Of a DNA stretch of 43,421 nucleotides, positions 241 through 25,686 are shown piece after piece. The notes beneath the pieces are model-generated. The model saw only the letters and a list, made by a program, of their open reading frames with translations. It did no database searches and was not told the DNA's origin. The DNA lies in the IMG/VR virus record IMGVR_UViG_3300042480_001391, positions 1 through 43,421 of that record; one strand, written 5' to 3'. Position numbers and translations under genes: made by a program. This DNA is from a virus. How positions within the stretch are numbered: position 1 is the stretch's first letter; each line of letters starts with the position of its first letter.

Positions 241-465
241 ATGGAAAAAATTAGGTTAACAGAGGGACTAGCTTTCCTTATATTCGAGGCGTTGTTCTGC
301 ATATCATTTATCGCCCTTTGCGAAATACCTAACTGGGCCATAGGGGCTAAGCAAGTTAATGCCTGTACAGATAGGTGGATGTTTACAGCAGCTCTTTTTT
401 TCCCTTCTCCGACACAGCAATCCTCCCTCTCTAGCTCTCGTACAAATCGCGGTACGACAAAATAA
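241..465 (+). CDS. Small putative membrane protein, 74 aa
   Basis: The protein has one strongly hydrophobic stretch at about residues 9-27 (GLAFLIFEALFCISFIAL), which looks like a membrane segment, followed by a weaker hydrophobic patch near 46-54 and a Ser/Thr-rich tail. No family is recognised. ATG at 241 has a GTTGAAGGC motif 23 nt upstream and no clear Shine-Dalgarno sequence, as is typical of the motif-bearing genes here. The 3' end overlaps the convergent phoH gene by 35 nt. A small late membrane protein next to a phage control region could be a lysis or envelope factor, but nothing in the sequence proves this. Confidence 0.5.
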   Translation: MEKIRLTEGLAFLIFEALFCISFIALCEIPNWAIGAKQVNACTDRWMFTAALFFPSPTQQSSLSSSRTNRGTTK

Positions 466-1180
466 CCTGTTTTACAAATTCCGAGCGGACAATATCATCG
501 ATTTGGAATTCCACTGAACCGACAAACTCGTCGAGTTTAGACAGTCTGTGAACCGCATCGCTCAGACCGTCCTTTCCAAATCTATTGGCTAAATCGCGCT
601 GGATCACGTCACCTAGTAACGCGATTGAACTGTAGTCACCGAGACGAGAAAGAATAGTCAGCACGCTATGCGCAGTGGCATTCTGCATCTCGTCCGCAAT
701 TACCATGCAACGGTGCAGCGACCGACCTCTTAAATGTTCAATGGGCAAAAACTCGATAATCTTTTTATCAATCAAGTAATCCGCCTTCCCTTTCGCCATA
801 AACACGCTTAACGCGTCCCTTAGCGATGCAATATGCGGCTCGAGCTTTTCCATTTCGTTGCCTGGCAAATAACCAATACCTTTTTCACCGGGCGTATCGA
901 CAATCGGTTTGACATAGTATATTTTATCGATTTGCCGTTTTTGAAGTTTTTCGCAAGCAATGAAGACGGAGAGAAGTGTTTTAGCCGTCCCCGGGGGACC
1001 CGTTAAAATAGTAAGAGTTCGGCTTCGCAAATAATCCAAAGCTTCGCGCTGGCTGTCATTCGCAGGGTGGATCGTCCTGAGGCCGTCTCCCCGCCCTGCA
1101 GGGATCCCATAAGCAATTTCATCGTATCCCGGCACCGATGACTCGGTGACCTTCTCTCGCCTCGTACGCGCTTTAGCCAT
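431..1180 (-). CDS. phoH: PhoH-like P-loop ATPase
   Basis: This 249-residue protein matches the PhoH family, which is widespread in marine and cyanobacterial phages. Walker A is GPPGTAKT at residues 61-68 and Walker B is CMVIADEMQ at about 158-166. The segment KPIVDTPGEKGIGYLPG between them is characteristic of PhoH ATPase domains, as is ALLGDVIQRD after Walker B. The family is linked to RNA metabolism and to phosphate stress in some hosts, but its role in phages is unsettled. I chose ATG at 1180 over an upstream GTG at 1213 because the GTG lies inside a terminator-like hairpin. No Shine-Dalgarno sequence or recognisable promoter is seen directly upstream, so expression probably depends on read-through from the dNMP kinase gene. 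Confidence 0.93.
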   Translation of the reverse strand: MAKARTRREKVTESSVPGYDEIAYGIPAGRGDGLRTIHPANDSQREALDYLRSRTLTILTGPPGTAKTLLSVFIACEKLQKRQIDKIYYVKPIVDTPGEKGIGYLPGNEMEKLEPHIASLRDALSVFMAKGKADYLIDKKIIEFLPIEHLRGRSLHRCMVIADEMQNATAHSVLTILSRLGDYSSIALLGDVIQRDLANRFGKDGLSDAVHRLSKLDEFVGSVEFQIDDIVRSEFVKQVILSYRDLYES

Positions 1181-1197
1181 TGAGTTTTCCAGGTAAT

Positions 1198-1228
1198 AAA
1201 AAAGACGGGACACAAAGACTGTGTACCC
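1198..1228 (-). terminator. Putative intrinsic terminator or attenuator between dNMP kinase and phoH
   Basis: On the minus strand GGG-T-ACACA pairs with TGTGTCCC around a five-base loop (one bulged T), followed three bases later by six T residues. It lies after the kinase stop codon and only 18 nt before the phoH ATG, so it would attenuate rather than simply end transcription if phoH has no promoter of its own. The stem is short (8 bp with a bulge), so its strength is uncertain. Confidence 0.5.
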
Positions 1229-1288
1229 GCCCAGGAGCTGATATATTTTGAACGGAGAACCATTCAGAGAAAAGCACCTACAATGCTT

Positions 1289-1882
1289 TCACCTTTGTCT
1301 GAGGGGGATAGAAGGACAGTTGGTGAACACGTTTTTGTCGGTGTCGGGCCTGGGGAGGCTGAATACACAAGAACGGGGTATAAGGCTTTGGGCTTTGAAG
1401 AACTTCTCGGTATGTCCATAATACCCGTTATGCTCGTTCATTCTCAACTCGAGTTGGGCGTTTATCCAGTACGTAGAAGCGCGGGGATTATTGGTTTTAA
1501 GCTCGGTGATGTGCCGATCGATAATGGTTTGATCCCAGCCCCGGCCCAAGATTACAACATCAACTCTTTCGCTCAAGTCGATCAAAATCGACTCAGGCTC
1601 GAGTGAGCAGATCGGGTTGATGGGGGGCATTTGCCCCCTGCGCTCCTCGTAAAACAATGTGTCGGAGACGAAACGATCGATTAGGAGATAGTCTGGGGCC
1701 GGCGAAGGAATGTCTGTAAGCTTTTCCCTGAACTGTTCAACAGGAGAGCTATGTTCCGGCTTGATTCCTGAAAAGTGAAGAGTATGAACTAGGTATCCCG
1801 CGTTTTTTAAGTTAGACGCCGTCTTGTTAAGGAGAGAAGTTTTTCCAACCCGATCGGGCCCCAGGAAAATAATCGTGTGCAT
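1289..1882 (-). CDS. Thymidylate/deoxynucleoside monophosphate kinase-like protein
   Basis: The 197-residue protein opens with a P-loop, MHTIIFLGPDRVGKTS (Walker A GPDRVGKT at residues 8-15), followed by LLIDRFVSDTLFYE near 66-79. That Asp-Arg pair after a hydrophobic strand is typical of thymidylate-kinase-like dNMP kinases. It would phosphorylate dNMPs to feed phage DNA synthesis alongside ribonucleotide reductase and dUTPase. A longer frame could start at a GTG at 1915, but the ATG at 1882 places the P-loop at the usual distance from the N-terminus. The C-terminal third is not recognisable, and the substrate cannot be read from sequence. An extended -10 box and a strong hairpin lie between it and the divergent gene at 1945. 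Confidence 0.75.
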   Translation of the reverse strand: MHTIIFLGPDRVGKTSLLNKTASNLKNAGYLVHTLHFSGIKPEHSSPVEQFREKLTDIPSPAPDYLLIDRFVSDTLFYEERRGQMPPINPICSLEPESILIDLSERVDVVILGRGWDQTIIDRHITELKTNNPRASTYWINAQLELRMNEHNGYYGHTEKFFKAQSLIPRSCVFSLPRPDTDKNVFTNCPSIPLRQR

Positions 1883-1888
1883 TGCGGA

Positions 1889-1914
1889 GGGGAGAAGTCT
1901 CCCCAAGTCTAGCA
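1889..1914 (-). promoter_or_regulatory. Extended -10 promoter and 5' leader hairpin of the dNMP kinase gene
   Basis: On the minus strand TGCTAGACT (1914 down to 1906) fits the extended -10 form TGnTAnAnT seen before other metabolic genes here. It is followed at once by the perfect inverted repeat GGGGAGA-CT-TCTCCCC (1904 down to 1889), which would sit at the very 5' end of the transcript, just before the ATG. The box abuts the GTTGAAAGC motif that serves the divergent gene at 1945. Confidence 0.5.
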
Positions 1915-1915
1915 C

Positions 1916-1924
1916 GTTGAAAGC
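1916..1924 (+). promoter_or_regulatory. GTTGAAAGC motif upstream of gene 1945
   Basis: Exact motif copy with 20 nt to the ATG at 1945. No Shine-Dalgarno sequence separates them. TTGAAA of the motif is mirrored by TTTCAA just before the start codon. Confidence 0.6.
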
Positions 1925-1944
1925 CTTATGAGACGATTATTTCA

Positions 1945-2268
1945 ATGCCTAAACCGAGATGGGGTGTTCGGTTTACATCCGACCCGAACAGGACTAAAGA
2001 CTATGTGCAGTCGTTGTATGACGATGATGCCGCCAATGTGAAACGCGGCGAGCTGTTTCTTAACGAGCCGAAGGCCCAGATCTTTTATGTCGGCGCGGAT
2101 GGAATTGCAAGACGTGTAGGCGAGCAGGACGTCGTCCCTTTCGCCCAAATCGATTTTACCGGCCTTAGGGAATTCGCTGACGATACCGCTGCCGCTGCCG
2201 CCACTCCTCCCGTCCCAGTCGGAGGCATGTACCGCACGGGAGGCGCCCTCAAGGTGCGGGTTTCTTAG
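1945..2268 (+). CDS. Small putative virion protein, 107 aa
   Basis: The protein is unfamiliar as a whole, but its pattern GELFLNEPKAQIFYVGADGI (residues 33-52) resembles the short beta-rich display module found in phage fibre and collar proteins, and a similar segment, GEIVTNTADGRAWVFDQSG, occurs in the gene at 18745. An Ala/Pro-rich linker near residues 82-91 leads into GGMYRTGGALKVRVS, another motif common in phage structural proteins. It carries the GTTGAAAGC motif 20 nt upstream and its TAG stop runs directly into the next copy of that motif. I infer a tail or capsid accessory protein made late. Confidence 0.6.
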   Translation: MPKPRWGVRFTSDPNRTKDYVQSLYDDDAANVKRGELFLNEPKAQIFYVGADGIARRVGEQDVVPFAQIDFTGLREFADDTAAAAATPPVPVGGMYRTGGALKVRVS

Positions 2269-2276
2269 TTGAAAGC
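2268..2276 (+). promoter_or_regulatory. GTTGAAAGC motif upstream of gene 2303
   Basis: Exact copy, 26 nt before ATG 2303. The upstream gene's TAG stop supplies the first base. The surrounding TTTCTTAGTTGAAAGCTT is repeated base for base at 26772-26789. Confidence 0.6.
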
Positions 2277-2302
2277 TTAAGGAATAGATTAGATCGAGTA
2301 TT

Positions 2303-3034
2303 ATGGCTACAATCGCTAGATTAAAAAGGCTTGTTGGCATCGAGTTTGAGTACAAAGCTTCGCTCGGAGATTTTTTTGCCACCGTCTTACAGAATAAACT
2401 TGTCAACGAGTACGATGAGACGGGGAACACCCCTGAAATTCGCTCGGAACTGCTGGAAAAATACAACACTTGCGGGCCTAGCATGGGCTTCTCGGCCAAG
2501 CAATTCGCGTATGGGGTCTTGGAACTGGTGGTGGACGCGTTGGTTGCGAATCCGGATGTTGTGACGGATCCGTACGAGAACCAGCTCAATGATCAGCTTG
2601 TGAATATTACAAGGTATGTGGGAATCGCTGGTGAGGGAGATTATCACTTTATGGTGGCAGTGTATAACCTTTCCGCAACGCTTTCCCAAATCACGCAGAA
2701 TGTCATTCCCGTGGGTCCGCTTGTCGCCCTAGGCGATGTACTTGACGGTGGTGAAAACTATACGGTTGACGGTCTAGACGGAGGCGATGCGACCGGTGTT
2801 GTGTTCCGAGCTTATCTCGAGGTCGGTGAACAAAACGATCCTGCTCAGTACGAAGACGCCTCGCTCGAGGGGACGATTGTGGACGGTTCTGTGACCGAGA
2901 TTACCGACATCCTTGACGGCGGTGACGGCTTTGCCGTCGGCGATATCTTGAGTCTGGAGATAGATACAACCGAACCCGGCCAGGGTGACGGTGAAGGATC
3001 CGGCGCGTTAGTTGTGGTTATCGAAGTGGCATGA
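2303..3034 (+). CDS. Putative virion structural protein, 243 aa
   Basis: The first 140 residues look mostly helical and match nothing I know. The C-terminal 100 residues contain two related beta-rich units, VLDGGENYTVDGLDGGDATG and ILDGGDGFAVGDILSLEI followed by GSGALVVVIEV. This pattern (a GGxG(Y/F) turn, a strand, then Gly-Ser-Gly-Ala and a strand) is common in cyanophage virion proteins. The C-terminus is acidic and the protein lacks cysteine apart from one residue near 58. ATG at 2303 follows a GTTGAAAGC motif by 26 nt. Position upstream of the hub suggests a tail or baseplate part; the exact role is unknown. Confidence 0.65.
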   Translation: MATIARLKRLVGIEFEYKASLGDFFATVLQNKLVNEYDETGNTPEIRSELLEKYNTCGPSMGFSAKQFAYGVLELVVDALVANPDVVTDPYENQLNDQLVNITRYVGIAGEGDYHFMVAVYNLSATLSQITQNVIPVGPLVALGDVLDGGENYTVDGLDGGDATGVVFRAYLEVGEQNDPAQYEDASLEGTIVDGSVTEITDILDGGDGFAVGDILSLEIDTTEPGQGDGEGSGALVVVIEVA

Positions 3035-3146
3035 AGTGCATAGCCTCTATCGTTGCAGGTGCCTGGTAGGTTATAGGCCGTTTTCTACCGGCGATCAGGA
3101 GATTATATGGTTCCCGGAAAGGCAGATTGCCGGGGTAACCTTGTCA

Positions 3147-6100
3147 ATGAACTGGTCGCCTGATGCGTTGACCGCGAATGCCGAGACTTCGGTCCAAGGA
3201 GCAACTCAGTTTGTAAACGCCTTGTCCGGGTCGACAGTAAACGTCACGTTGTCCGACCCGTACATGACCGGGGCGTCTTGGGCGGTACTTTTTGATACGG
3301 CTGCAGCGTACACTGGTGAGCAGTTGGCAGCCGCGAACCATATCTTGCTGCCGAAGTGCGAAAAGGGCCAGGTGTCGACTCGCGAAAGACCTTGCCGTCC
3401 GTACGAACAAAGCTCGGAATTTGAAGATCCGGGCATCAGCAAAGCTAGTTTTTCACAATTCGCTCATTTGGTTGTAATTTTCTATTACAATGTCGGCAGT
3501 AACGTCTTCAGCCTGGAGAGTTATTTTCGGGTAAACCGGTTCAATATCAGTCACGGGAAAACTTATCCCAAAGTGACGATTTCCGGCCTTGATCCCCAGA
3601 CAATCGCTTTTAACCAGAATCTGGCAAACTTTCAAATGAAAGAGAACGAGACGCTGGAAGAGAATTTGAAGGAAATTGCGAAACAATACGGGTACCGGGT
3701 GTCGTTTTGCAACTCGCCTGAAGCGAATTATGGCCAGAAGTACATAATGCCTAGTGGGTTTAGGGAGAAGGCGGTTACAGGGGAAGAAGTACTTAAGAAG
3801 TATATTGGGAGTGTGGGAGGAAATTATAGCAAACTACCTTTGAAAGAGTATGCGAATAAGATTTCGATCTGTACACGGGCAAATGTCAATCAAGGCTGCT
3901 CAATATTCTACCTAGGCAAGGGACTGTACGAAGGCTACCAAATAAGCGGATCGGTCGAACGTGACTTTCTGAATTCTAACGCTGAACTTGAGTTCAAGCG
4001 CGGCTTAGGTGTCGATTATGACACTACCCCTATTGACGGAGAAGAATACACTTTAGAAGATACTTTCCCGGATAAGAGAAAGGCGAAGATGGCGAGTGTC
4101 AAAACGAGTCTCAAGCAGTTCCCCGAGCAGTTTACTGTCTTAAAAAGGAGGTTTCAAGTCAATCAGTCGACAAGCGGATATGTGTGGAGAGGTAACGGTC
4201 CGGCCGTTAAAAACACCAAGGTAGAGAATACGAACTTATATGGTATTGGTGTTAATGATAACGTTCCTATATCGTTTTTAGACGGACTTGTTGAGAACAG
4301 AACCTTTACGAAGGACGTTAACGGTTCCCTATGGATTAATATACAGACAAACTACGTCCTTAAAGTGTGTGATAAGGCAAAGAAGTGTACGATCCGTCCT
4401 ATTCATCAAGAGGTGGGTAATTTACTGGCGATTCAAGGCGATTTAAAAAAGGGCAGTAAAGTTGCGATTAACCAGGTATTGGGAGAGTCGAATCCAGAGA
4501 AACTGCTGCACACCCGGTTCTATATTCCAAAGTCATCGGCCGGTACTACTACCGTTACCCTCGAACCGTCGTTGGTGTGGAATTTCGCCATCCCGGCATT
4601 CGATCTTACAGACGAAGAGAAGAAAGAGGCTGGGATTAAAACGATTCAAACGGCACCTGGACCCATTACTACCGGGGCAAAGGTAGTGCCTGAGTCCCCT
4701 AAAGCTTCTGACAAAAACTGGAGAGCTACTGATACATCCAAGCCTACAAAAATATTCCTTATGGCAGGACATGCCGATGCAGCGGGTTCCGGCGCTCCTA
4801 ACGAAAGAGAACTTAATGTCGAATTAGTAAAATGGGCGCAGAGAAACGCCCAGGCGTATGGAGTGTCTGACTTTGTCGAGTTTTACTTCCCCCCATCTAG
4901 CAGTTTGCCAACAAGCAGTCCAAGCAGCCAGTATTCAAAAACATCTGAAGCGGTTAGACAAGGCAAGCAAGTGATCGAAATACACAACGATTGCTATCAA
5001 GAAGTAGAACCTAAATGTTTTGGTAGATCAGGTGTAATACCCCCTACCGCCGGTAGAAAAATCTGGCAGCTTGACGATGTTCTTTCACAGACTTACGGGG
5101 CTTTCCCCCTTAACCACAGGGACGGCCTTGCAGTACCTCGTAGAGGTGGAACTATTCTCGAGGTGGGGAGGATGTCCCCCGAAGTGAAAAATATCTTCGA
5201 AAGAGGTACAGCTAGCCAAAAAGAAGCTTTGTACAAGCAGTTAATGGGCCCAGTAATGCAGTCTATAGCGGCAGAGAAGGCTAGGATGCCGGGATCTGCG
5301 GCACCTGTTGCACCGCAACTCCCACCAGCCGCCTCCGCCCCTATAGGCCAATGTTTAGGCCAACTGGGTAACACGGGAAGTTCTACTGGCGCACACCTCG
5401 ATGCTAGGTGGACGGGGTCAAGAAATAGACAGCCTATAACAGCGGCTGATGTGGCTAAATATGTCACAGTGGGGGGTAAAAGACTTACCCAGTCCATGGT
5501 AACTTCTGAGTATAGTTTGAGTAGAACTATAGATGGAGTAACTCGACCCCACTATGGTATAGATTTTGTCGGTGCGGGAATAAAAGAAGGAGACTCGATC
5601 GGACTGATAGGTGGTGCTAAATTTAATAGAGTTGGCGAAACGGGATGTGGCAAAAGTACAGGATATGGGGATGGGTGCGGAGACGGACTCGGGAACTTTA
5701 TAGTAATAGATACCCCTGAGGGACAGATGATACTCGCTCACCTCAAAGAAGGCTCGTTGACCAACTGCTCAAGACAGCCCCAGACAAGCTCGTCATCTGG
5801 CTCTTCTGGTTCCAAATACGGCCAAGGGGTACAGAACTCCCCAACTCCTGTCGGCGTCACGGTAGAGACCGAGTTCAAAGGAATACCCCGCTCGTTAAGA
5901 ATTGTTCCCGGCAGGACGATCCTCGCGTTCGTAACCAAATACGATGAGTGGATTGAGAAGGGGCGGCCGAACAATATCGACCCCGGGGTCTGGATCCCTC
6001 AACGATTTTCAAAATGGTTCGTTAAAAGTGCTGAATACAGATGGGATGGAGACCTTAGGGTGAAGGTGACTGGGGTGAGTGATTGGGGTGTAGCAGTAAA

Positions 6101-6857
6101 CAACGTTCCGGCTCCTCCCACCTTTGAAGACTACTTAGTTACGGAAAATTTCAAATACCGCGATTACTATGGGTATATCCGCTCGTTGGGAGATTTGTGC
6201 TGGAACCTGGGCAATGGCAAAACATCTTGCGACGAACTTTGTAAAGAGGCGGAGGAGGTGAGGGAGTTTTTACAACGGTCGAGGGAAACGGCTGAGGCGA
6301 CAGAGGCAGCTTCCTCAGTTAGTAGCTCTTTCCCCCAGGGAAACTGTACTTATGCGGGGAACTATGCAAGTTCTTCTAAATCCACTATTCAGAATAGCAT
6401 AAATGCTCTTAGGTCCGTAGGAATTACAAACCCAATAGCTTATGCAGGAGCTTTGGGTAATTTTTCTGTGGAGAGCAATTTTAACGCTAATGTTCACAAC
6501 GGCTCCAATCCCGGAGTTGGATGTGGCAGTACTCCATCCAGAGTTTTAGGTACTTCCGGATACGGATTAGCCCAGTGGTGCGGAAGCAGAGCGGATAATT
6601 TAGCTGCTAAATGTGGCAGAAGTTGTACAGAGCAACAACAACTTGAGTTCATAGTGCAAGAGATAAGGGAGGGAAGAGATGTGTTCCCTATAAATGGGGT
6701 GAGGATAGTAGATGCCATGAATGCAGCTAGAACACCCCAAGAGGCGGCAGATTTATGGAATAAATACTACGAGAGGGGACCTGGGGGGATACAAAAAAGG
6801 CGAGACGAGGCGGTCAAAATATGGAATAACGGACAAAACTTCTCTTGCTCTAAGTAA
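3147..6857 (+). CDS. Baseplate hub protein with amidase, permuted M23 and lysozyme modules
   Basis: About 1,236 residues. Residues ~130-200 read as a gpD/gp27-type hub (YFRVNRFNISHGKTYPKVTI then TLEENLKEIAKQYGYRVSF). Residues ~540-715 resemble a zinc amidase (Amidase_3): His542 in LMAGH, Glu553/555 in NERELN, His613 in EIHND, Glu672 in ILEVG. Residues ~740-870 hold M23 peptidase motifs in permuted order: GSSTGAHLDARW (His750) first, then HYGID (His802, Asp806), then AHLKEG (His865). Residues ~1062-1235 match the phage tail lysozyme family, with Glu1109 in GNFSVESNF and SGYGLAQW. It would cut both glycan and peptide bonds during injection. The start is uncertain: a Shine-Dalgarno sequence and ATG at 3107 lie in another frame, and upstream TTG 3012 and GTG 3036 are possible in this frame. 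The stop overlaps the next start (TAATG). Confidence 0.85.
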   Translation: MNWSPDALTANAETSVQGATQFVNALSGSTVNVTLSDPYMTGASWAVLFDTAAAYTGEQLAAANHILLPKCEKGQVSTRERPCRPYEQSSEFEDPGISKASFSQFAHLVVIFYYNVGSNVFSLESYFRVNRFNISHGKTYPKVTISGLDPQTIAFNQNLANFQMKENETLEENLKEIAKQYGYRVSFCNSPEANYGQKYIMPSGFREKAVTGEEVLKKYIGSVGGNYSKLPLKEYANKISICTRANVNQGCSIFYLGKGLYEGYQISGSVERDFLNSNAELEFKRGLGVDYDTTPIDGEEYTLEDTFPDKRKAKMASVKTSLKQFPEQFTVLKRRFQVNQSTSGYVWRGNGPAVKNTKVENTNLYGIGVNDNVPISFLDGLVENRTFTKDVNGSLWINIQTNYVLKVCDKAKKCTIRPIHQEVGNLLAIQGDLKKGSKVAINQVLGESNPEKLLHTRFYIPKSSAGTTTVTLEPSLVWNFAIPAFDLTDEEKKEAGIKTIQTAPGPITTGAKVVPESPKASDKNWRATDTSKPTKIFLMAGHADAAGSGAPNERELNVELVKWAQRNAQAYGVSDFVEFYFPPSSSLPTSSPSSQYSKTSEAVRQGKQVIEIHNDCYQEVEPKCFGRSGVIPPTAGRKIWQLDDVLSQTYGAFPLNHRDGLAVPRRGGTILEVGRMSPEVKNIFERGTASQKEALYKQLMGPVMQSIAAEKARMPGSAAPVAPQLPPAASAPIGQCLGQLGNTGSSTGAHLDARWTGSRNRQPITAADVAKYVTVGGKRLTQSMVTSEYSLSRTIDGVTRPHYGIDFVGAGIKEGDSIGLIGGAKFNRVGETGCGKSTGYGDGCGDGLGNFIVIDTPEGQMILAHLKEGSLTNCSRQPQTSSSSGSSGSKYGQGVQNSPTPVGVTVETEFKGIPRSLRIVPGRTILAFVTKYDEWIEKGRPNNIDPGVWIPQRFSKWFVKSAEYRWDGDLRVKVTGVSDWGVAVNNVPAPPTFEDYLVTENFKYRDYYGYIRSLGDLCWNLGNGKTSCDELCKEAEEVREFLQRSRETAEATEAASSVSSSFPQGNCTYAGNYASSSKSTIQNSINALRSVGITNPIAYAGALGNFSVESNFNANVHNGSNPGVGCGSTPSRVLGTSGYGLAQWCGSRADNLAAKCGRSCTEQQQLEFIVQEIREGRDVFPINGVRIVDAMNAARTPQEAADLWNKYYERGPGGIQKRRDEAVKIWNNGQNFSCSK

Positions 6858-7375: not shown

Positions 7376-8061
7376 TACTTCGCCCCCTTGATAATATTTT
7401 CCCTCGGATCAAGAACCTGGTACTGCGCATTCAAAGCGTGGTAATCAAACCAGCTTTCTGACATCTCGACACAAGAAAGACGACAAGTAACACCCACACA
7501 TTTGACGGGTATTGTTTCCAGGTCTAGAGAATTGTCTCGGCACCATTCCTCGACAAGCCGTATAAACGGATATACGTGATCGACATGATACGTCCCGTGT
7601 ATCGGCTTGCCTGTCAACGACGATTTAACAACATTTTGACCCGAGACTCGTCTTTTATAAAGATCGATCTGCGGTTGGATAATATTTCTCAAAGCACGGA
7701 TCGCGAGTTTTCTATTCTCCTTGGCCGGGTCGGGGACATAAGTCTTTGGGAATATTTTCGACATTACATACGATTTTCCCACCCATACTTCGTACTTAGA
7801 CGTGGGTGTCATCAAGACTACACCCTTGACTTTGCGACCATTAAACTCTTTGCTTGTGAGTTTGAACTTGCACTGTCCAGGCCTTAAGACGATTTTCCTG
7901 AACCTTTCAATCTTGAGACAGATTTGCCTCATGAACAAGGTGTCCTCTTCGTTAAAAAAGACACCTGTCTCATAAGATGAAGTAATAGACTTCCATCTCT
8001 CCGCGAACTGTTTTTTATTGTATTGCTGCTCGCCAATCTCCGTATATATCGACTTACCCAT
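7348..8061 (-). CDS. DUF3223 (DCL)-like protein with HxDH motif
   Basis: The diagnostic region is SSLTGKPIHGTYHVDHVYPF at about residues 147-166, followed by a helix and the segment ETIPVK. This TG-x(n)-HVDH-x3-F signature fits the DUF3223/DCL family, known from plant plastid proteins and from many phages; the His-Asp-His cluster suggests a degenerate HNH-like metal site, though no activity is established. It is the last gene of the leftward operon. ATG at 8061 overlaps the sigma-factor stop; a GTG one codon upstream is also possible. The N-terminal 140 residues are basic and could bind nucleic acid. Function is unknown. Confidence 0.6.
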   Translation of the reverse strand: MGKSIYTEIGEQQYNKKQFAERWKSITSSYETGVFFNEEDTLFMRQICLKIERFRKIVLRPGQCKFKLTSKEFNGRKVKGVVLMTPTSKYEVWVGKSYVMSKIFPKTYVPDPAKENRKLAIRALRNIIQPQIDLYKRRVSGQNVVKSSLTGKPIHGTYHVDHVYPFIRLVEEWCRDNSLDLETIPVKCVGVTCRLSCVEMSESWFDYHALNAQYQVLDPRENIIKGAKYYGKSSDNI

Positions 8062-8779
8062 CACTCATAAGTTTGCTAAGCAGCTCGTCCGTCCTCGCTG
8101 CAATCTTATCCGCACTATTAATCCCCGGATTCTTGCGATAGATAGTTGACACAGCTCTTTTGTGAATGTAAACATCCATTAGAAATGTGTATTCTTCTGG
8201 GGAAAGTTTCGAAAGCCTACCTATAATATCCCCGTAATCGCTAAACATCGAGGCGAGATTATCGTCATCAATCCCCCCGTCATCAACTGGCATCTCCGTC
8301 TCCTCGTTAATCTCCAAATACGTCATTTGAAACGCCTCACGCGTCTCGGCTATAAGATGTTCGGTCAGGCCGGTAGCCTCAGATATCTGCGCGTCAGTGA
8401 GGTCTGGGTTCCGCCCCACAATCCTCCTCATTTTCATATAAGCGTCTGAATACGACCGGGGTATCTTGATCATTCGCGAGTTATCGCGCAAATAATTCAA
8501 TAGCTGAAAAGTCAACGAGCGATTTAACCAAGTACTGAAATTGGCTTTTTCCGGGTCCCACTTGTCATAAAGTTTGACCATTGCTTCAAGGGCAACAGAC
8601 CTCAACTCGTCAAATGGAACACCAGAAAACGATGCCACTTTCCTCGCGGCATAACTCGCTTTCCACATATTTTCCCGGATGTGAAAATCGCGAGTCCGCT
8701 CGTACTCCGTCTTCCTCCGATTATAATTATTCCTAAGCCTCTCCCTTCTCAGCTCGACATTAATACCTTGCGTGGTCAT
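8054..8779 (-). CDS. Phage-encoded sigma-70-type factor
   Basis: The 241-residue protein has a clear sigma region 2 at about residues 35-107: FDELRSVALEAMVKLYDKWD, NFSTWLNRSLTFQLLNYLRD and RMIKIPRS align with the core-binding and -10-melting segments of sigma-70. Region 3 follows (VGRNPDLTDAQISEATGLTE, about 125-144). Region 4 is poorly conserved: after LSPEEYTFLMDVYIHKR the usual helix-turn-helix that reads the -35 box is not recognisable. This resembles T4 gp55-type late factors, which depend little on a -35 contact. Its start overlaps the thioredoxin stop (TGATG). I infer that it redirects host RNA polymerase to late phage promoters, possibly those carrying GTTGAAAGC. Confidence 0.82.
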   Translation of the reverse strand: MTTQGINVELRRERLRNNYNRRKTEYERTRDFHIRENMWKASYAARKVASFSGVPFDELRSVALEAMVKLYDKWDPEKANFSTWLNRSLTFQLLNYLRDNSRMIKIPRSYSDAYMKMRRIVGRNPDLTDAQISEATGLTEHLIAETREAFQMTYLEINEETEMPVDDGGIDDDNLASMFSDYGDIIGRLSKLSPEEYTFLMDVYIHKRAVSTIYRKNPGINSADKIAARTDELLSKLMSDG

Positions 8780-9150: not shown

Positions 9151-10731
9151 CTATAAATACTGAGTTGGCAAGCTCCCTCTTCCGAGTCTTCCCGTAACTC
9201 TTTGACTACCCCCAATATGATTGATTTGGGGGAGTTGAACTCTAGATCCCCCATGGGCAGCCTTGGCCGCCCCCATAATCTCATCCCTATACACTCTTAA
9301 ACCCATGACAAAAGCGTCGACAAAATCATCATTCTTTGAGTAAGGAAAAGCACACAGCTCTGACATTAATTCACCGAGCTTGGGAATTTCTGAATATATC
9401 GAAACTCGACCGTCTTCCGCCACGGGAGCAACTTCATTCGCCCTCATAATCTTATCTTTGGTTGGGATTACCTCCTTCACCGGAATTTGCAATTCTTTCC
9501 TAAGCATTTGTATCAAAGGAAGTCCACTAGCCCTGCTCTCGATATAAATAGCCCTTACTTTCCAGGTTTTCAACCACAGCGGCATCACCTTTAACAAGTC
9601 AGGAAACTCCATATGTTCTTTATAAACATTAATAAGGTGTAATTTCCTCGTCTTTTTAACAACCCCAAACACGCACATAACCGAGTAATCGTTCATCTCT
9701 TTTTCTTTAAGGGCAGTATCGGCAGTTGCGAATACAAACTCGTATTGTTGAAGATTTTTCTCATGCTGCTCGAACCAGGAGTGTTTAAAAATCGAACCGC
9801 TGGCGCCCTTAGGTCTACCAAGATACAGCGTCTCAAAAGTATTCTTGTCCTGCTTTTCAATAGCTTTCAATTCTTCTACTGGGAAAAACTCCGGCCAATG
9901 CGATTCACCTAACTTTCTACCTATAGGATCGTTCTCCTCATCAAGACACAAAGCGGGCACATTTAACTCTAGCCAACCCTCCGGGTCGCTTGATAGCAAT
10001 CTCCCGATAACATCTTCTACGTGGAATCTGGTTCCCATAGACATAACGCAGTTATTTGGAAGACCTCTAGTAAGGAACTGGGCCGTAGCCCAGGCAAAAG
10101 TTGAGTCAAGTACTTGTAGTGAATTACCGTCTTCAAGTAAATCGTCTAAGATGCCGATACCCGGTAAATCTTCTTCACTAATTACACCGAATCCAAAGCC
10201 GGTTACGCCGGACCCTGCGCTAGCAGACATTATAATTCCGCCCTGACCAGTCCTCATAGTTTTAAGGTTACAGTCTTTTTTATTAATACTGCATTCAGGA
10301 AATATCCATTTAAACGTATCGCTTGTAATATAACTCAATATCGCCCTGGAGTTCTCGTGTGTGAGCTTAAGACCATAAGACGCCATGATGAACTGAGCGC
10401 TGGGGCTACGTCCTAGCTGCCAACTCGGCATTAATTTAGATATAAGCATGCTTTTGCCGCTCCTAGGCGGCAAGGATATACAGGTTCTTTTATAATCCGG
10501 ATTCCCGTCACAGATATTCTGAACATAGTCACATATTAACTCGTGTACTCTATACGGAGTAAATACGCCGCTGTTTGTAACTTCTCGGGTAATTACTCGG
10601 GCGTAGGTAATAAATTCCGTGCGGCACTTTAGCCGAAGCAGTTCTTTTCTCTCCTCCTGGCTCAAACTCTCAACTTTCAGCATCATCTCTTTGACAAGAG
10701 ATTTCTCTTTCGCCAATTGGCTCTTATTCAC
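9151..10731 (-). CDS. terL: Terminase large subunit (packaging ATPase-nuclease)
   Basis: The 526-residue length and motif order fit phage TerL. Walker A is PPRSGKS at 88-94, Walker B is GIGILDD at 191-197, and the C-terminal RNase H-like nuclease shows ATADTAL with NDYSVMCVFGV (about 334-355), IYIESRASGLPLIQML, and FPYSKNDDFVDAF. It drives DNA into the prohead and cuts the concatemer. No small subunit, portal or capsid gene is in the window. GTG at 10731 overlaps the spike gene stop by 8 nt. A GTTGAAAGC motif lies 23 nt upstream inside the spike coding sequence, which supports this start and suggests an internal late promoter. Finding terL inside a baseplate operon is unusual for contractile phages. 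Confidence 0.93.
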   Translation of the reverse strand: MNKSQLAKEKSLVKEMMLKVESLSQEERKELLRLKCRTEFITYARVITREVTNSGVFTPYRVHELICDYVQNICDGNPDYKRTCISLPPRSGKSMLISKLMPSWQLGRSPSAQFIMASYGLKLTHENSRAILSYITSDTFKWIFPECSINKKDCNLKTMRTGQGGIIMSASAGSGVTGFGFGVISEEDLPGIGILDDLLEDGNSLQVLDSTFAWATAQFLTRGLPNNCVMSMGTRFHVEDVIGRLLSSDPEGWLELNVPALCLDEENDPIGRKLGESHWPEFFPVEELKAIEKQDKNTFETLYLGRPKGASGSIFKHSWFEQHEKNLQQYEFVFATADTALKEKEMNDYSVMCVFGVVKKTRKLHLINVYKEHMEFPDLLKVMPLWLKTWKVRAIYIESRASGLPLIQMLRKELQIPVKEVIPTKDKIMRANEVAPVAEDGRVSIYSEIPKLGELMSELCAFPYSKNDDFVDAFVMGLRVYRDEIMGAAKAAHGGSRVQLPQINHIGGSQRVTGRLGRGSLPTQYL

Positions 10732-13700
10732 AGTCGGTTTCTCCGCTCTCCCTCGCTTTCAACTCTTCGTACAGTGAAGTGCGTTCTTGCCCGGGGAATA
10801 CGAACCCGTCCGGGAAGACAGTACCGGCGGGTAGTAAAGTCCCGGACGGTAGCGCTACACCTGTTGGTAGCGAAGACCCTTCGGGGAATACGGTGCCATC
10901 CGGAATAACAAACCCTTCGGGCAATGGCAAATCTTGTGTAACAGTGCCGCCACTTGTTGGAGACGCATCACCCGCCCTTTGAATAAACGTATTCTTAAGA
11001 GTGTTGATTTGATTCGGCGACAGCACCTGGTCAATAGGCGGCTTGTTCTCTTGCAAATCGTCTACAATCTTCGAATCAAGCGAGATAGACAGGAATCTCG
11101 CCTCGTCAAATAGCGTGCGTTCGTTGGGGAAGACGATTGGCAGAGGGGGATTGTAAAGTCCGAGCTTAACAGGAGTTCCCAAGCCTGGAGTCATCGTCTC
11201 CCATTCAAGATGAGCAGGCTTTATACCGCCCTCCATAATCTTAGTAGTCTCGATCTTGTTCTTTTCGTACAGCCCCGCAAGCCCGGGGATATTCGCTAAC
11301 GCCAGTCCAATTGACGGGGTAACGTTAACACCGATCCTCGGGCCGTCTTTAACCAGGTCGAGGGTTTTGACAAACCGGTATATAGACTGCAAGGCCTGGG
11401 AATTCTCCCTAACATCTGTAATAAGTTGTTGAAGAATGGCGGTCTCCGGGCCCGGCTTCCAGAATATATTCTGCAGCGTATTATACCCGGAGTCTATAAG
11501 TCGCCTTTCAACTGATTCAATGCGGGTAATATTATTATCCGCCATTTTGAACCCTTTTTCCACGTTTTCAAACGTGTAAGCAAATTCCGCCTCTTTCTCC
11601 GCCTCGTCCGCATAACGAGATTCATAGAACTTCTCCGCCATGTTTACAAGACGCTGCGACCCGTATATCATCTGGGTCAAGTCACTTGTGTTAGGAGGGA
11701 TTAGATTTTTACCAACTAGAGTAGGAGTAAGTCCCAAGTCAAATGCTACGTCTCCAACATTGTTTGGTAAACAAAAACCTGTGGGACAATAGGCATTGGC
11801 ATTTACACTCGTCAAAGCACCACACGGATCGAGCAATTTCTGGCCGTCCGTATCGACTCCATGTGCAACTTTGCGACACTTAGGATCACAAGGACAGTTA
11901 CCGCCCGCCCCACCAAACAACGAGGACAATGCTCCAATCCCAAACAGCGCAGTTGATATTGGGTTGAACCCGCCCCCTACAAGAGCGGCAAGCCCGTTAA
12001 AGCCTATGCCACCCCCTAAGCCACCAAACAACGATTGCACTGCGTTGCCAATGCCCAGCGCACCCATGGCTGTGCTAGCGAGAAACGGTAACGATCCCAA
12101 GGCGCCTGGCGCCATCGGCATTCCGGCCAAATTACTGAACTGGTTGAACATTTGCCCCATTGGCCCCAGGGCCCCACCCCCAATCAACGAGGCGGTAGAG
12201 GACAGGATCTGAGGCGTTATTGCGTTCCTGCCGAGCAGCGAGTTAAACGTACCGGAAACAGCGGCAGTCAATCCGCCACCAGACGCGGTGTTAAGAATAT
12301 TTCCTAAGGCGGTGGGATACCCCGCGAGCACGTTCCTGGCGATTCCGACAACCGGCTGGACGTACTTGTTCACCTCAGGGGGGAGTTTGCTCAGCCCGAG
12401 GATAGTGGCTGTATCAATCGCGCCCCAGACTCCTCCAGACATCAAGCCGGTCATTACCGATGCGGTCTGCGGACTTAACGAAAGCAGCGAATTTCTTAAG
12501 GCGTTTTGGCCGATATTTACCAGGGCTTGGTCAACCGTGCCCCCAACAACCCCGTTAGTCAATACCCTGCCCGCATCGCCTATACCTGTCAATAGTTGTG
12601 CAGTTTCGAATGACAGTTTCCCATCTCTGTCTAGCTCTTGTCTTAACGTGTTAGTTAAAGTGTCGACAGGAATTCCGAGTCTGCGGTTCATCGCCTCTCT
12701 CGCAGCGGTAGACAATACCTGCGCACCGTTAAACGCCTGAGCCGGTAACAGCCCCGCCAGTTGCAATGCGTTCCTAAGGGCCGGATCTGTATTAGTTAGA
12801 GGGATGTTGGAGATTACGGTATCGAAGACTGTTTCAATAATCTCTGGTTCCTTGAGCCAATCGAACCCGCCCTCTTCAAGTGCGGGCACCGGCCCATACC
12901 CATCCAGAAATTCCACCTTCGTAAGCGGTTTATCCTTTTTGTGAAACTTGTGCGGGAGTCTTTTACCCTCCTTCACCCACCTCATAAGCCCTTGATATCT
13001 CAAACATTTTACAATTTCCGAGTTGTTTCCATCGTCTACAACCGCCTCCATGCCATGTATTTTTTCCGAGCAAGTAGGCAAAGTGGTTCTGAAGAATACA
13101 GGAGGAGCAGATTCCGGGATCCAGCCAAACTCTCCGTTCTCATCCCTTCTGCAGACCATGCTTGTTGTCCTGAATCCCCTATCCTCAGAAAAGTCATGCT
13201 TCTCGCCAAGCAGTGACTCAGTACATTCCGGTATGCCCGGATTTCTCAACTGCGCTTGCTCGATCGGGATTGTGGTTTCGTTCCCCGGGTTAATACTTTT
13301 TTCGATCCAAAGCCCGTTGGTCAGGGATTTCCACGCCCAAGCCGGTTTATTACCAACTTGAGGGCTACTCCGCCTAAGACAGACAACAACATCTTGATTG
13401 ATTTCGTTACTCAGTATATACGTGCGCCCCTCGTTCTCCCTATTGCAAGTCATTCCAGGGTCGGAAGATCCATTCCAGACCGCCATGCTCTCATCGATTA
13501 TAGGGAGTTGGAAAGGCGACCCATTCAATCCAACATCCTTGTCATTCTTAACAATACCGATGACATACATATTCTCGCTTCGGCCATTTGTCTTACCAAC
13601 CAAGACGTTCGAGCCGATATATCTCGAGCTTAACGTGCCGCTACTCGAACCGGACACAGGGATCCATTTAGAGGTGAATCCGTCGTCCGTAGTGACCTTG

Positions 13701-13843
13701 ACCCTGCCAAGCCTTTTGGGATCGTTAACATCAATGATTACCGCCTCCTCGTTAAAAGGATCGGCAAAGGGAACACCTAAGGTTTCGACAATCCTGCTTT
13801 GCGCTCGGGCCATCACCCCGGCATGTTTAAAAAATTCGCTCAT
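10724..13843 (-). CDS. gp5/gpV-like baseplate spike protein, 1,039 aa
   Basis: Residues ~25-110 look like the OB fold of baseplate spikes: FADPFNEEAVIIDVNDPKRL and GRVKVTTDDGFTSKWIPV, then SRYIGSNVLVGKTNG. No lysozyme domain follows, unlike T4 gp5; the lytic modules here are in the hub gene. The centre (about 380-640) is Ala/Gly/Leu-rich and low in charge, with a Cys cluster after it (GNCPCDPKCRK). The C-terminus (972-1018) has eight repeats of xx[LIF]PxG (FVIPDG, TVFPEG, VALPSG, TLLPAG), suggesting a small beta-solenoid or trimeric tip. ATG at 13843 has CAGGAG upstream. It follows the gpI-like gene by 6 nt. Confidence 0.75.
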   Translation of the reverse strand: MSEFFKHAGVMARAQSRIVETLGVPFADPFNEEAVIIDVNDPKRLGRVKVTTDDGFTSKWIPVSGSSSGTLSSRYIGSNVLVGKTNGRSENMYVIGIVKNDKDVGLNGSPFQLPIIDESMAVWNGSSDPGMTCNRENEGRTYILSNEINQDVVVCLRRSSPQVGNKPAWAWKSLTNGLWIEKSINPGNETTIPIEQAQLRNPGIPECTESLLGEKHDFSEDRGFRTTSMVCRRDENGEFGWIPESAPPVFFRTTLPTCSEKIHGMEAVVDDGNNSEIVKCLRYQGLMRWVKEGKRLPHKFHKKDKPLTKVEFLDGYGPVPALEEGGFDWLKEPEIIETVFDTVISNIPLTNTDPALRNALQLAGLLPAQAFNGAQVLSTAAREAMNRRLGIPVDTLTNTLRQELDRDGKLSFETAQLLTGIGDAGRVLTNGVVGGTVDQALVNIGQNALRNSLLSLSPQTASVMTGLMSGGVWGAIDTATILGLSKLPPEVNKYVQPVVGIARNVLAGYPTALGNILNTASGGGLTAAVSGTFNSLLGRNAITPQILSSTASLIGGGALGPMGQMFNQFSNLAGMPMAPGALGSLPFLASTAMGALGIGNAVQSLFGGLGGGIGFNGLAALVGGGFNPISTALFGIGALSSLFGGAGGNCPCDPKCRKVAHGVDTDGQKLLDPCGALTSVNANAYCPTGFCLPNNVGDVAFDLGLTPTLVGKNLIPPNTSDLTQMIYGSQRLVNMAEKFYESRYADEAEKEAEFAYTFENVEKGFKMADNNITRIESVERRLIDSGYNTLQNIFWKPGPETAILQQLITDVRENSQALQSIYRFVKTLDLVKDGPRIGVNVTPSIGLALANIPGLAGLYEKNKIETTKIMEGGIKPAHLEWETMTPGLGTPVKLGLYNPPLPIVFPNERTLFDEARFLSISLDSKIVDDLQENKPPIDQVLSPNQINTLKNTFIQRAGDASPTSGGTVTQDLPLPEGFVIPDGTVFPEGSSLPTGVALPSGTLLPAGTVFPDGFVFPGQERTSLYEELKARESGETDCE
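10755..10763 (-). promoter_or_regulatory. GTTGAAAGC motif inside the spike gene, upstream of terL
   Basis: Exact minus-strand copy within the codons for Glu-Leu-Lys-Ala near the spike C-terminus, 23 nt before the terL GTG. It keeps the genome-wide spacing although it must also code for protein. Confidence 0.5.
10790..10930 (-). repeat. Hexapeptide repeats (xx[LIF]PxG) at the spike C-terminus
   Basis: Eight consecutive units at the protein level: LPEG, FVIPDG, TVFPEG, SSLPTG, VALPSG, TLLPAG, TVFPDG, FVFPG. The DNA repeats are diverged, so the period is kept by selection on the protein. Repeats of this kind can form short beta-helical rods. Confidence 0.75.
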
Positions 13844-13849
13844 GGATAC

Positions 13850-16378
13850 TTACTCCTGAAAAAATGGATAACCTGGGATTGTTATACTCTCCTGATCTTT
13901 GTATATTGCTGAAGAAAAGATTCTTATCTGGCCTAAAAACACTTCGACATCCTGCTGTTCTTGCAGCAAGAGTTTAAATAACCCGAAGGCCATTATTGGA
14001 TCGTTAATTTGATTTTCGTAAGGAACACTAGCTATTAATTCTCCCCCCAAATGAATTATTAGACTCCCCTGATAATACTGAATACTGCAGTGAGTCAAAG
14101 ACTCTCTAGGCCATGGCAATGGTATTATTTGATCCTCACTAAATGGCTCAGGATTTAAAATAAGGAAGTCTCCAAGAATACCCCAACCAAATAATAAATT
14201 ATTATCCGCAACAACAATAACCAAGTCATTTTCAAATTCTCCGACATCCCCGACGTAGGCAAAAAACTCAATACAAAACTCATTGGAGAAAGGACTACAA
14301 AAATCTGGATTGAAAGACCACAATCCCCCGCTCATGGCATTTGCCGACTCTACGACAGTTATTGAATAAGGGTCAACCAAATTTGACTCTCCCCCATCGC
14401 CCTCAAACCTATTCTGAAATTCTCCCGCCGGAGGTATTGACTGTGGGGTAATTTCATCTGGATACCAGATAACTGTGTCTATTTGCCCCCCAGATATCTC
14501 AAAGAAAAAATCATCAGCGGTTAATAAATCAGAGACAGGATAACCGTACTGAAGTCTTTTGTCTGCAGTAGCAGTCATCCAGTTATCTATTATACTCTTA
14601 GCTGCATCCCAAGTCTTACCATCTCTATTGTAATAAAACGGCATTCGTATTACAACAGTATTCGCCAAATTAACGTCTCGACAAACAGCCATGTCAGCCA
14701 CTAACTGATTACTGTACATCCCAACTTCGGCGTCCTGATCAGTGCCGACGTGTATAGCATCCCAAATTACAGGGAGATTAACAGGGGAGCTTGACTCAAG
14801 AGCCCTTAGTCCACTTCTAACACTATAAGATCCGTCATCGTTAACAACAAATTCTTCAGCGCTTACTGCCTTTATATTAAAAGCCCAGAACATAAATATT
14901 ACTGACAATAAAGAACCTCTAGCCGGTATAAGTCCTGGCCATTGAGACATGTCAGCAATAAGTTCGTCAACTACTACACGCTCTACCAGAGAATTATCTA
15001 AATTGTATAAGTTTTTTGAATATCTCGATACCGTGTTATTCCCGCAAGCAAATTCTATTTGCGAAAGATCTATACCCCTTAAAGTATCCTCTTCCGGGTC
15101 TCGAGTCCATAACCCGCCTTCGGGCAAATCGTTCTTATGCGCATTCCTTAACAGCAAGCGTTTGAACGGGGAATCCCATTCCAAGTTCCACATACCACCA
15201 AAGAAACCCATGTGCTGAGCGATCCAGTCGAGGTTTAGCGGATAGCAAGTTTCCGGGTCGAGAAAATTATTATAAAACCAGTCTATTCGCGTCTTGGAAT
15301 CGCTGAGTTCCATATCCGAGCCGGAAGTCAGCCATTTTGCAACATCCGAATCACTGTCTTCGTTATTATACGCCCCGGACACACCCGGAAGTCTATTATA
15401 CACCGGCCGAGAAATCTGCCCGTCTATTGAAACTCTAGGCAGTCTGAACGAGCTTAGCGCGAACTGTATTGCTCTTTGATACAACAAGCCCAACACATTA
15501 TAAGATTCTGCTACAAACTCTCTATTCGTAAGATTTTCTCTGTCACCCCAAAGCTCATCTAATTCCGCAGCTATAAATTCAGACCATGCCGATGGCAAAG
15601 ACTCTGTAACAGAGTTAAATACTCGATCGTAAGTCTTTCTCTCCAGTGGGACGGTGGCGAGAATATCACTGCTAAGGATAAGTCGTACAAATATATCTAA
15701 AGAGTCTTGAAGCGATGTCGGTGAAAGGAATTTTACCACTCGCCTTGTAAAACTCTCGTCCGAATATGTGCTCGGGGGGAGATATACTGTCGAGTAGACA
15801 CTAGCCACTTTGTCAACATTTACCGATTCATTTGTTCCTGGAAGTGGAAACACTCCCCGTGAAACAGACAAAGTCTCTACAACCTCTTCCCCATATAAAT
15901 AGTAGTAAAGATCCGGCACAGTATACGACTCATATCTCCACTTGCCCCGTTCTTCATTAGCCAGTCTGCCAATAACGCACTTTCCCACTTCACACTCAGT
16001 ATCACTTGCACCATCGCTGCAACTCATCCCGGCCATGGCGCAGTTTTCTAAGCCATTTGGGACGGGTACTCCATGTGCCAAGACTTCTACTTCATCAGAC
16101 AGGAGAACAGGAATGGTATGAACATGCGAAATACTTCTGTATTTGTACTCGGACAGAGTCTTCTGGTCATACTCCCTCCGAATTACTTCGTCTCTTGCCC
16201 GGTTCCTGCTTTGGCCGTCTTGGGTGAACTCCACTTGGCCGATTACATGCTGAAATATTTTACTCCTCGCTCTGTCATTGGCGAACTGGAAGTTCACGCG
16301 AGCCGGGTTAAGGGCAAAAGCCGGAGACTTTCCCCTTTTGCTTGATTTACGATCCCAAGAACTATTAGACGATATCAT
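13850..16378 (-). CDS. gpI-like baseplate protein with C-terminal lectin (LamG-like) domain
   Basis: 842 residues. The middle contains FLDPETCYPLNLDWIAQHMG and WDSPFKRLLLRNAH (about 370-420), which fit the P2 gpI / T4 gp7-type tail family, usually encoded directly after gpJ as here. The last ~150 residues look like a concanavalin/LamG jelly roll: FCIEFFAYVGD, LTHCSIQYYQGSLIIHLGG, then DVEVFLGQIRIFSSAIYKD. Such domains bind glycans, so this wedge protein may also contact the host surface. The lectin part (13850-14450) appears more AT-rich than the N-terminal part, suggesting later acquisition. ATG at 16378 overlaps the end of gpJ by 14 nt. Confidence 0.72.
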   Translation of the reverse strand: MISSNSSWDRKSSKRGKSPAFALNPARVNFQFANDRARSKIFQHVIGQVEFTQDGQSRNRARDEVIRREYDQKTLSEYKYRSISHVHTIPVLLSDEVEVLAHGVPVPNGLENCAMAGMSCSDGASDTECEVGKCVIGRLANEERGKWRYESYTVPDLYYYLYGEEVVETLSVSRGVFPLPGTNESVNVDKVASVYSTVYLPPSTYSDESFTRRVVKFLSPTSLQDSLDIFVRLILSSDILATVPLERKTYDRVFNSVTESLPSAWSEFIAAELDELWGDRENLTNREFVAESYNVLGLLYQRAIQFALSSFRLPRVSIDGQISRPVYNRLPGVSGAYNNEDSDSDVAKWLTSGSDMELSDSKTRIDWFYNNFLDPETCYPLNLDWIAQHMGFFGGMWNLEWDSPFKRLLLRNAHKNDLPEGGLWTRDPEEDTLRGIDLSQIEFACGNNTVSRYSKNLYNLDNSLVERVVVDELIADMSQWPGLIPARGSLLSVIFMFWAFNIKAVSAEEFVVNDDGSYSVRSGLRALESSSPVNLPVIWDAIHVGTDQDAEVGMYSNQLVADMAVCRDVNLANTVVIRMPFYYNRDGKTWDAAKSIIDNWMTATADKRLQYGYPVSDLLTADDFFFEISGGQIDTVIWYPDEITPQSIPPAGEFQNRFEGDGGESNLVDPYSITVVESANAMSGGLWSFNPDFCSPFSNEFCIEFFAYVGDVGEFENDLVIVVADNNLLFGWGILGDFLILNPEPFSEDQIIPLPWPRESLTHCSIQYYQGSLIIHLGGELIASVPYENQINDPIMAFGLFKLLLQEQQDVEVFLGQIRIFSSAIYKDQESITIPGYPFFQE

Positions 16379-25408: not shown

Positions 25409-25686
25409 TGGCAAGAGCTAAACCCCCTCGCTGGTGGGGCAAATTCACCTCCTCCTTGCCCAAGTTTCGTTTGCCTTTTCTCGAACCGAGGGTATGGACG
25501 CGGGAACTCGCCCAGGCCTGGGTGGACCGAATCCCGCCCAAATGCCCGTTTGAGAGGGCGGTGTGGTGGCGCGGCCGACTCGTGCTCTACATCCCCCCTT
25601 TGTGTCCCCTTAACCCGTTTTCGACCCAGCTTTACGCGATACGCCTCAAAGCGCAAGAATTTCTGTCAGCAAATCCTGACATTTGA
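25408..25686 (+). CDS. Small Mo-dependent nitrogenase C-terminus-like protein, 92 aa
   Basis: The segment PPKCPFERAVWWRGRLVLYI followed by PPLCPLNPFSTQLYAIRLKA strongly recalls the cyanobacterial family named after the Mo-dependent nitrogenase C-terminus (typical form CPFER...IPPLCKLNP...LRFRAL). Members occur in many cyanobacteria and cyanophages and have no known biochemical role. The basic, Trp-rich N-terminus (PPRWWGKF) is not part of the core. ATG overlaps the fibre stop (TAATG), so it is probably translated with the fibre mRNA. This gene is the best single indication of a cyanobacterial host. The assignment comes from motif memory and should be tested with the Pfam profile. Confidence 0.65.
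   Translation: MARAKPPRWWGKFTSSLPKFRLPFLEPRVWTRELAQAWVDRIPPKCPFERAVWWRGRLVLYIPPLCPLNPFSTQLYAIRLKAQEFLSANPDI

Follow-up and report, generated by a model that had tools for sequence, protein, structure and literature searches.

A putative cyanophage baseplate hub with exchangeable wall-hydrolase modules and a circularly permuted M23 domain

Introduction

Hub genes related to the one analyzed here are present in the Aurunvirus phages S-TIM5, S-TIM54, S-TIM61 and S-TIM66, where gp111 of S-TIM5 and its homologues are annotated only as "virion structural protein". In other cyanophages, the enzyme set of this hub recurs on separate proteins. The Microcystis phage Ma-LMM01 carries the amidase on its OB-fold spike, gp094, and an M23 peptidase of canonical order on the separate neighbouring protein gp095. 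In the Synechococcus phage RB11-B, an "endolysin" belongs to the same amidase family, and a separate neighbouring protein annotated as "peptidase family M23", also of canonical order, adjoins the gp5 gene. A multi-enzyme hub is already known in kind from the Anabaena myophage A-1(L). Its hub barrel, gp15 (PDB 8KEA), bears lysozyme and endoglucanase domains near the N terminus (residues 56–430) and a C-terminal peptidase domain; two of these, the endoglucanase and the peptidase, lyse Anabaena cells (PMC10966104).

In this work, a 43.4 kb fragment of a viral contig (IMG/VR record IMGVR_UViG_3300042480_001391, positions 1–43,421; hereafter, the window) was analyzed. We give a probability of about 0.8 to the reading that its contractile-tail central hub, which is S-TIM5/Aurunvirus-like and probably belongs to a cyanophage, doubles as a carrier of exchangeable virion peptidoglycan hydrolases.

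Genome organization and the hub fold

The hub and all its enzyme domains are encoded by a single unbroken ORF (3012–6857, plus strand). The likely start is a GTG codon at 3036, giving a protein of 1273 aa; the ORF opening at 3012 corresponds to 1281 aa, and residue numbers throughout follow the latter count. The gene is located near the spike, wedge (baseplate J) and terminase genes in an arrangement syntenic with that of S-TIM5 (Table 1). The order phoH – hub – sigma factor – terL is common to both genomes and in S-TIM5 reads phoH – gp112 – gp111 – sigma – terL. Judging from its relatives, the virus likely infects a cyanobacterium. Elsewhere in the window, the gene at 29291–31231 encodes a ribonucleotide reductase large subunit, residues 549–624 of which match a thioredoxin-domain family (phrog_22, E 9e-9); this C-terminal stretch is possibly a built-in reductant.

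Table 1. Features of the hub gene and its neighbourhood in the window.
Feature	Position	Strand	Remarks
phoH	431–1213		
Baseplate hub gene with enzyme domains	3036–6857	+	Homologous to and syntenic with S-TIM5 gp111
Hub N-terminal part, aa 9–356	3036–4079	+	With the hub C-terminal part matches phage/VgrG hubs, Z 8–11; pLDDT low here
Degenerate LytM/M23-like domain, standard order, aa 357–527	4080–4592	+	Without zinc ligands; structure matches
Amidase_3 domain, aa 579–765	4746–5306	+	His587, Glu598, His658, Glu717; structure Z up to 12.9; phrog_30576, E 1e-15
Circularly permuted M23 peptidase	5333–5801	+	Limits are the exchange breakpoints against L004
Hub C-terminal part (VETEFKGIPRSLRIVPGRTIL...)	5829–6190	+	Resumes the hub fold; hub matches reach model residue ~1000
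Phage_lysozyme2 cassette (core 6399–6827)	6311–6856	+	Catalytic Glu1154; exchanged whole against L002 and L003
Sigma factor	8054–8779		
terL	9151–10731		
Spike-like gene, OB domain (Phage_base_V/VgrG-related)	10724–13843	-	No wall enzyme recognised
Baseplate J protein	16365–17666		
Tail fibre, 2052 aa	19250–25408		

The hub family comprised 33 non-redundant members, including that of the syntenic phage S-TIM5. The four Aurunvirus phages share with the window the hub, the LytM-like domain, the permuted M23 domain, the hub C-terminal part and the lysozyme. Unlike the window hub, their proteins contain no amidase and have an intact M23 HxH motif; the identity to the window protein is 27–33% per piece (two pieces).

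The hub part gave no sequence match in Pfam or the PDB. Modeling of residues 28–1098 using AlphaFold 2 with 28 family sequences led to a model with a mean pLDDT of 62 and a pTM of 0.36 overall, which was good in the enzyme domains and weak in the hub part. Its matches among solved structures fell into three groups, namely Amidase_3 enzymes, phage/VgrG hubs and LytM/M23 proteins. Model residues 3 to ~1000 matched the hubs of A-1(L) (Z 11.0), pyocin R2, E217, Pa193, Mu and P1 as well as VgrG, with moderate Z values of 8–11 in a region where pLDDT is partly low. Judged from the model, the gene product is a baseplate hub of the gpD/gp27/gp44/VgrG type, which would form a trimer around the spike. 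The hub C-terminal part is among the most conserved stretches of the family. Since the hub fold closes only downstream of the enzyme domains, the amidase and M23 domains lie within the hub chain, and the lysozyme alone is found at the C terminus; where exactly in the barrel the insertion lies is unsure, as the model is weak there. Matches to LAGLIDADG_2 and STN in some hubs were below threshold and were taken as chance.

Upstream of the amidase, model residues 303/330–500 matched DipM (Z 8.5), ShyA (Z 8.3) and LytM (Z 8.0), and a weak SpoIIQ profile match was found (E 0.02). In the alignments the HxxxD and HxH residues are absent, and the domain was therefore read as a dead LytM-like domain. 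EnvC and NlpD activate the amidases AmiA/B/C, and a LytM-like fold immediately preceding an Amidase_3 domain might act on it in the same way. However, this domain is also present in hubs that have no amidase, such as that of S-TIM5, and the amidase is short (~185 aa); no space for the AmiB/C autoinhibitory insert is apparent in it. An activator is thus an unlikely role; the dead domain would rather be a structural or wall-docking unit.

Amidase and lysozyme domains

The amidase of the window did not match Pfam Amidase_3 (PF01520), and a HMMER search of the PDB with an amidase profile gave nothing relevant. Model residues 552–738, in turn, matched the Amidase_3 enzymes Rv3717, Ami1 and Nostoc AmiC2 with Z values of 11.4–12.9. 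The four site residues listed in Table 1 are conserved in all 14 amidase-bearing hubs, and the roles of zinc ligands (His/Glu/His) and catalytic Glu can be assigned to them by homology. The closest described relative is gp094 of Ma-LMM01 (29% identity), which itself scored 14.3 bits against Pfam Amidase_3, below the cut-off; the RB11-B "endolysin" is 35% identical over 133 aa. The hub amidase is a divergent Amidase_3 subfamily, recognised via its fold and site residues. A further divergent form with an IVELGRM motif is found in hubs L024 and L045, where the four site residues are kept and a weak Pfam Amidase_3 match is obtained.

The lysozyme was recognised by Pfam (PF18013, aa 1130–1272, E 9.6e-18; 3e-19 and 70 bits when scanned alone) and aligns with phi29 gp13. 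Its catalytic residue is kept in 32/32 hubs that extend that far.

An earlier note, made from the window sequence alone, had placed three different wall enzymes behind the hub and none on the spike, and had proposed profile and structure comparison of the domains and their catalytic sites. This comparison recovered Phage_lysozyme2 by Pfam, Amidase_3 by fold and M23 after rotation of the sequence. Three enzymes on one hub are borne out by profiles, the AlphaFold 2 model and site residues, with the correction that two of them are internal to the chain; the spike gene indeed shows an OB domain only. The catalytic sites are present as expected in the amidase and lysozyme, and in the M23 domain with one replacement, described below. 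The note had missed the degenerate LytM/M23-like domain and the resumption of the hub fold after the enzymes.

Circularly permuted M23 domain

In the ordinary Peptidase_M23 family (PF01551), HxxxD precedes HxH. In the 33 hubs the order is GxxGxTGxSxGPHxHxE, HxGID, AHL, with small variations, i.e., the HxH strand comes first and HxxxD second. The corresponding residues of the window hub are His795-x-Asp797, His847-x3-Asp851 and His910. Because of the permutation, an ordinary Pfam scan detects just 20 residues of this domain. After rotation of the sequence, the Pfam match, previously split or in fragments, became continuous and covered most of the M23 profile. The rotated S-TIM54 domain scored 45.8 bits (profile positions 2–90 of 96) and the rotated L004 domain 44.6 bits (positions 2–91 of 96) at a Pfam cut-off of 28.7 bits; that of the window rose from 19.0 to 25.1 bits, just below this cut-off.

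The profile of the native unit matched the canonical M23 domains of Ma-LMM01, RB11-B, S-SRP01 and a spirochaete as two pieces in swapped order, and the rotated profile matched each of them in one piece and with more bits (62.4 to 69.7 for Ma-LMM01 gp095, 44.6 to 56.5 for L077 and 39.1 to 48.7 for RB11-B). The spirochaete domain, which was the sole match in a scan of genome contigs with one M23 module, served as a control. The tape measure protein of Acinetobacter phage YMC11/11/R3177, itself permuted, showed the opposite, with a decrease from 42.2 to 28.7 bits on rotation of the profile. Modeling of the isolated unit gave a core pLDDT of ~90. A Foldseek search with this model found nothing at E under 0.001, as is expected for a permuted fold, and the model aligned to three M23 structures over the HxxxD..AHL part only (Z 4.4–4.7). 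Since these structural alignments are modest, the permutation rests on the sequence rotation tests, according to which the unit is a circularly permuted M23 peptidase.

Two separate Pfam stretches in the native order, as in S-TIM54, could also be left by a deletion that joined two truncated M23 halves instead of forming one working permuted domain. This is very unlikely, given that both halves and nearly all site residues are kept in 33 divergent hubs, that exchange affects the unit as a whole, that the isolated unit folds in the model and that the same order is found in unrelated tape measure proteins.

The first HxH His, the HxxxD Asp and the AHL His of the permuted domain are each present in 33/33 hubs. 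In the window, Asp797 replaces the second HxH His at a zinc-ligand position, the other site residues being present; therefore, activity of this M23 domain cannot be assumed. The HxD variant is also found in hubs L002, L038 and L047 and in R3177, and thus appears to be recurrent rather than a product of random decay. In hubs L017 and L030, which differ in their scaffolds, Tyr is found in place of His in HxxxD (GHGYPGIDY).

The same permuted M23 is carried by 24 Acinetobacter and 6 Moraxella phage records, namely in the tape measures of R3177 and its kin and in tail proteins of Moraxella Mcat phages. These phages are unrelated to the window, and the proteins are tape-measure or tail proteins without a hub. 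In the R3177 tape measure (967–5277 of that genome, L075), the permuted domain, of the HxD type as in the window, lies mid-protein at residues ~680–800.

Exchange of enzyme modules

Hubs with a scaffold identity of 85–99% differ strongly in their modules, with identities of 30–59% for M23, 28–52% for lysozyme and 55% for amidase. The window hub and that of L002 are 99–100% identical in the scaffold and 28% identical in the lysozyme. With a nearly identical scaffold, L004 differs from the window in M23 (34%), and L003 in amidase (55%), M23 (59%) and lysozyme (28%). Among other pairs with like scaffolds, the lysozyme identity is 39% for L015/L022 and 52% for L024/L045, and the M23 identity is 49% for L028/L030, 36% for L035/L047 and 39% for the isolates S-TIM5/S-TIM66. 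Conversely, module likeness can far exceed scaffold likeness, as in L015/L039 (M23 67%, scaffold 28%).

The DNA flanking the swapped modules is mostly 92–99% identical, and the similarity ends at the module, often exactly at the domain. The breaks in the window are located at 6311–6856 against L002, at 5333–5801 against L004, and at 4898–5141, 5390–5609 and 6311–6856 against L003. S-TIM5 and S-TIM66 are 99% identical in DNA, interrupted only at M23 and at a 270-bp upstream insert. Such swaps occurred in five or more lineages as well as between these two isolates.

In AU tests on pairs selected after the identity table had been seen, the scaffold clade was rejected for M23 in 2/4 cases (L028/L030, 5e-9; the window clade marginally, p 0.038) and for lysozyme in 3/3 cases (8e-5 or less). 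It was not rejected for the M23 of L035–L047 and S-TIM5/S-TIM66 (p 0.25 and 0.34; two of the seven tests).

Most loci are metagenome contigs, in which strain mixtures can be misjoined, so that the module differences might be assembly chimeras. The isolate genomes S-TIM5 and S-TIM66, however, show the same pattern, which excludes a pure assembly artefact, and modules of the same types turn up on different scaffolds from separate metagenomes. The chimera explanation is scarcely tenable, and we take the exchange as genuine.

The main rival to changing wall targets is neutral exchange at linkers, i.e., an ordinary multi-domain hub in which the enzymes aid entry and recombine without selection on wall chemistry. 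A multi-enzyme hub has a precedent in A-1(L), although the accessible part of that report describes neither an amidase nor module exchange (PMC10966104), and domain shuffling is widespread in phages, baseplate proteins and endolysins included (PMC10684548). Sister-phage genomes of the window also differ in other segments, for example 13845–14495 and 23867–25413, and exchange is therefore not confined to the hub. Against neutrality, the enzyme modules hold 10 of the 13 breaks in ~11% of the compared sequence (binomial p ~4e-8, or 2e-6 with one window-clade pair), a statistic to be taken as a guide only, because the hub was at the centre of the loci compared and the choice of pairs followed inspection. 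In addition, swapped-in modules keep their active-site residues, which argues against decay. We regard neutral exchange as a serious competitor whose chances are somewhat below even.

The first of these other segments (~650 bp) is the C-terminal part of the minus-strand gene 13850–16378 after baseplate J. It is missing in the sister contigs L002 and L003 and present in L004's, and can be regarded as an optional domain of this gene. The second is the end of the tail fibre gene and has no DNA match in the L004 sister contig, the remaining fibre gene being 95% identical; an exchange of the fibre tip is probable here.

Discussion

The wall hydrolases of virions are generally regarded as invariant tools of entry, with diversity placed in the receptor-binding tips; other phages swap tail-fibre tips. 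No earlier description of near-identical hubs exchanging their virion wall enzymes was found, nor one of circularly permuted M23 peptidases in the literature searched, mostly outside subscription journals. The permuted M23 is an overlooked domain type, of which an ordinary Pfam scan picks up no more than a fragment in the window hub, and it recurs across cyanophage hubs and tail proteins of Acinetobacter and Moraxella phages. The enzyme-rich hub as such, which the earlier note had considered unusual, is less so in view of A-1(L).

In the proposed mechanism, the zinc amidase, the permuted zinc M23 endopeptidase and the C-terminal lysozyme would be separate modules on proline-/serine-rich linkers. 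On contraction of the sheath, the enzyme-free spike would pierce the outer membrane, and three copies of each enzyme on the hub would then open the murein beneath the tail. That the enzymes act after piercing is probable by analogy with A-1(L). Judging from the enzyme families, the targets would be the MurNAc–L-Ala bond for the amidase, the peptide bridges for M23 and the glycan for the lysozyme. Such a division of labour had been suggested before and is plausible from the three folds, with the reservation on M23 given above. Recombination inside the gene would exchange individual enzyme modules on an almost unchanged hub, so that the wall-cutting set could be tuned independently of the other tail parts.

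The earlier suggestion that three enzymes suit a thick or sheathed cyanobacterial wall found no support. Marine Synechococcus relatives (S-TIM5 and its kin) have the hub, M23 and lysozyme without the amidase, and enzyme swaps between near-identical phages point to changing wall targets and not to one thick wall.

That individual enzymes are exchanged while the hub stays the same suggests a wall target that differs from host to host, and changing selection on wall entry and not on receptor binding alone. More tentatively, and with a good deal of doubt, the hub modules may represent a second layer of specificity, in which the match of an enzyme variant to the host peptidoglycan or to a murein-protecting factor decides entry after receptor binding, and phages would adapt by swapping single permuted-M23, lysozyme or amidase cassettes. 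Swaps between near-identical phages, cultured isolates included, make peptidoglycan as a host-range barrier at entry a testable proposition.
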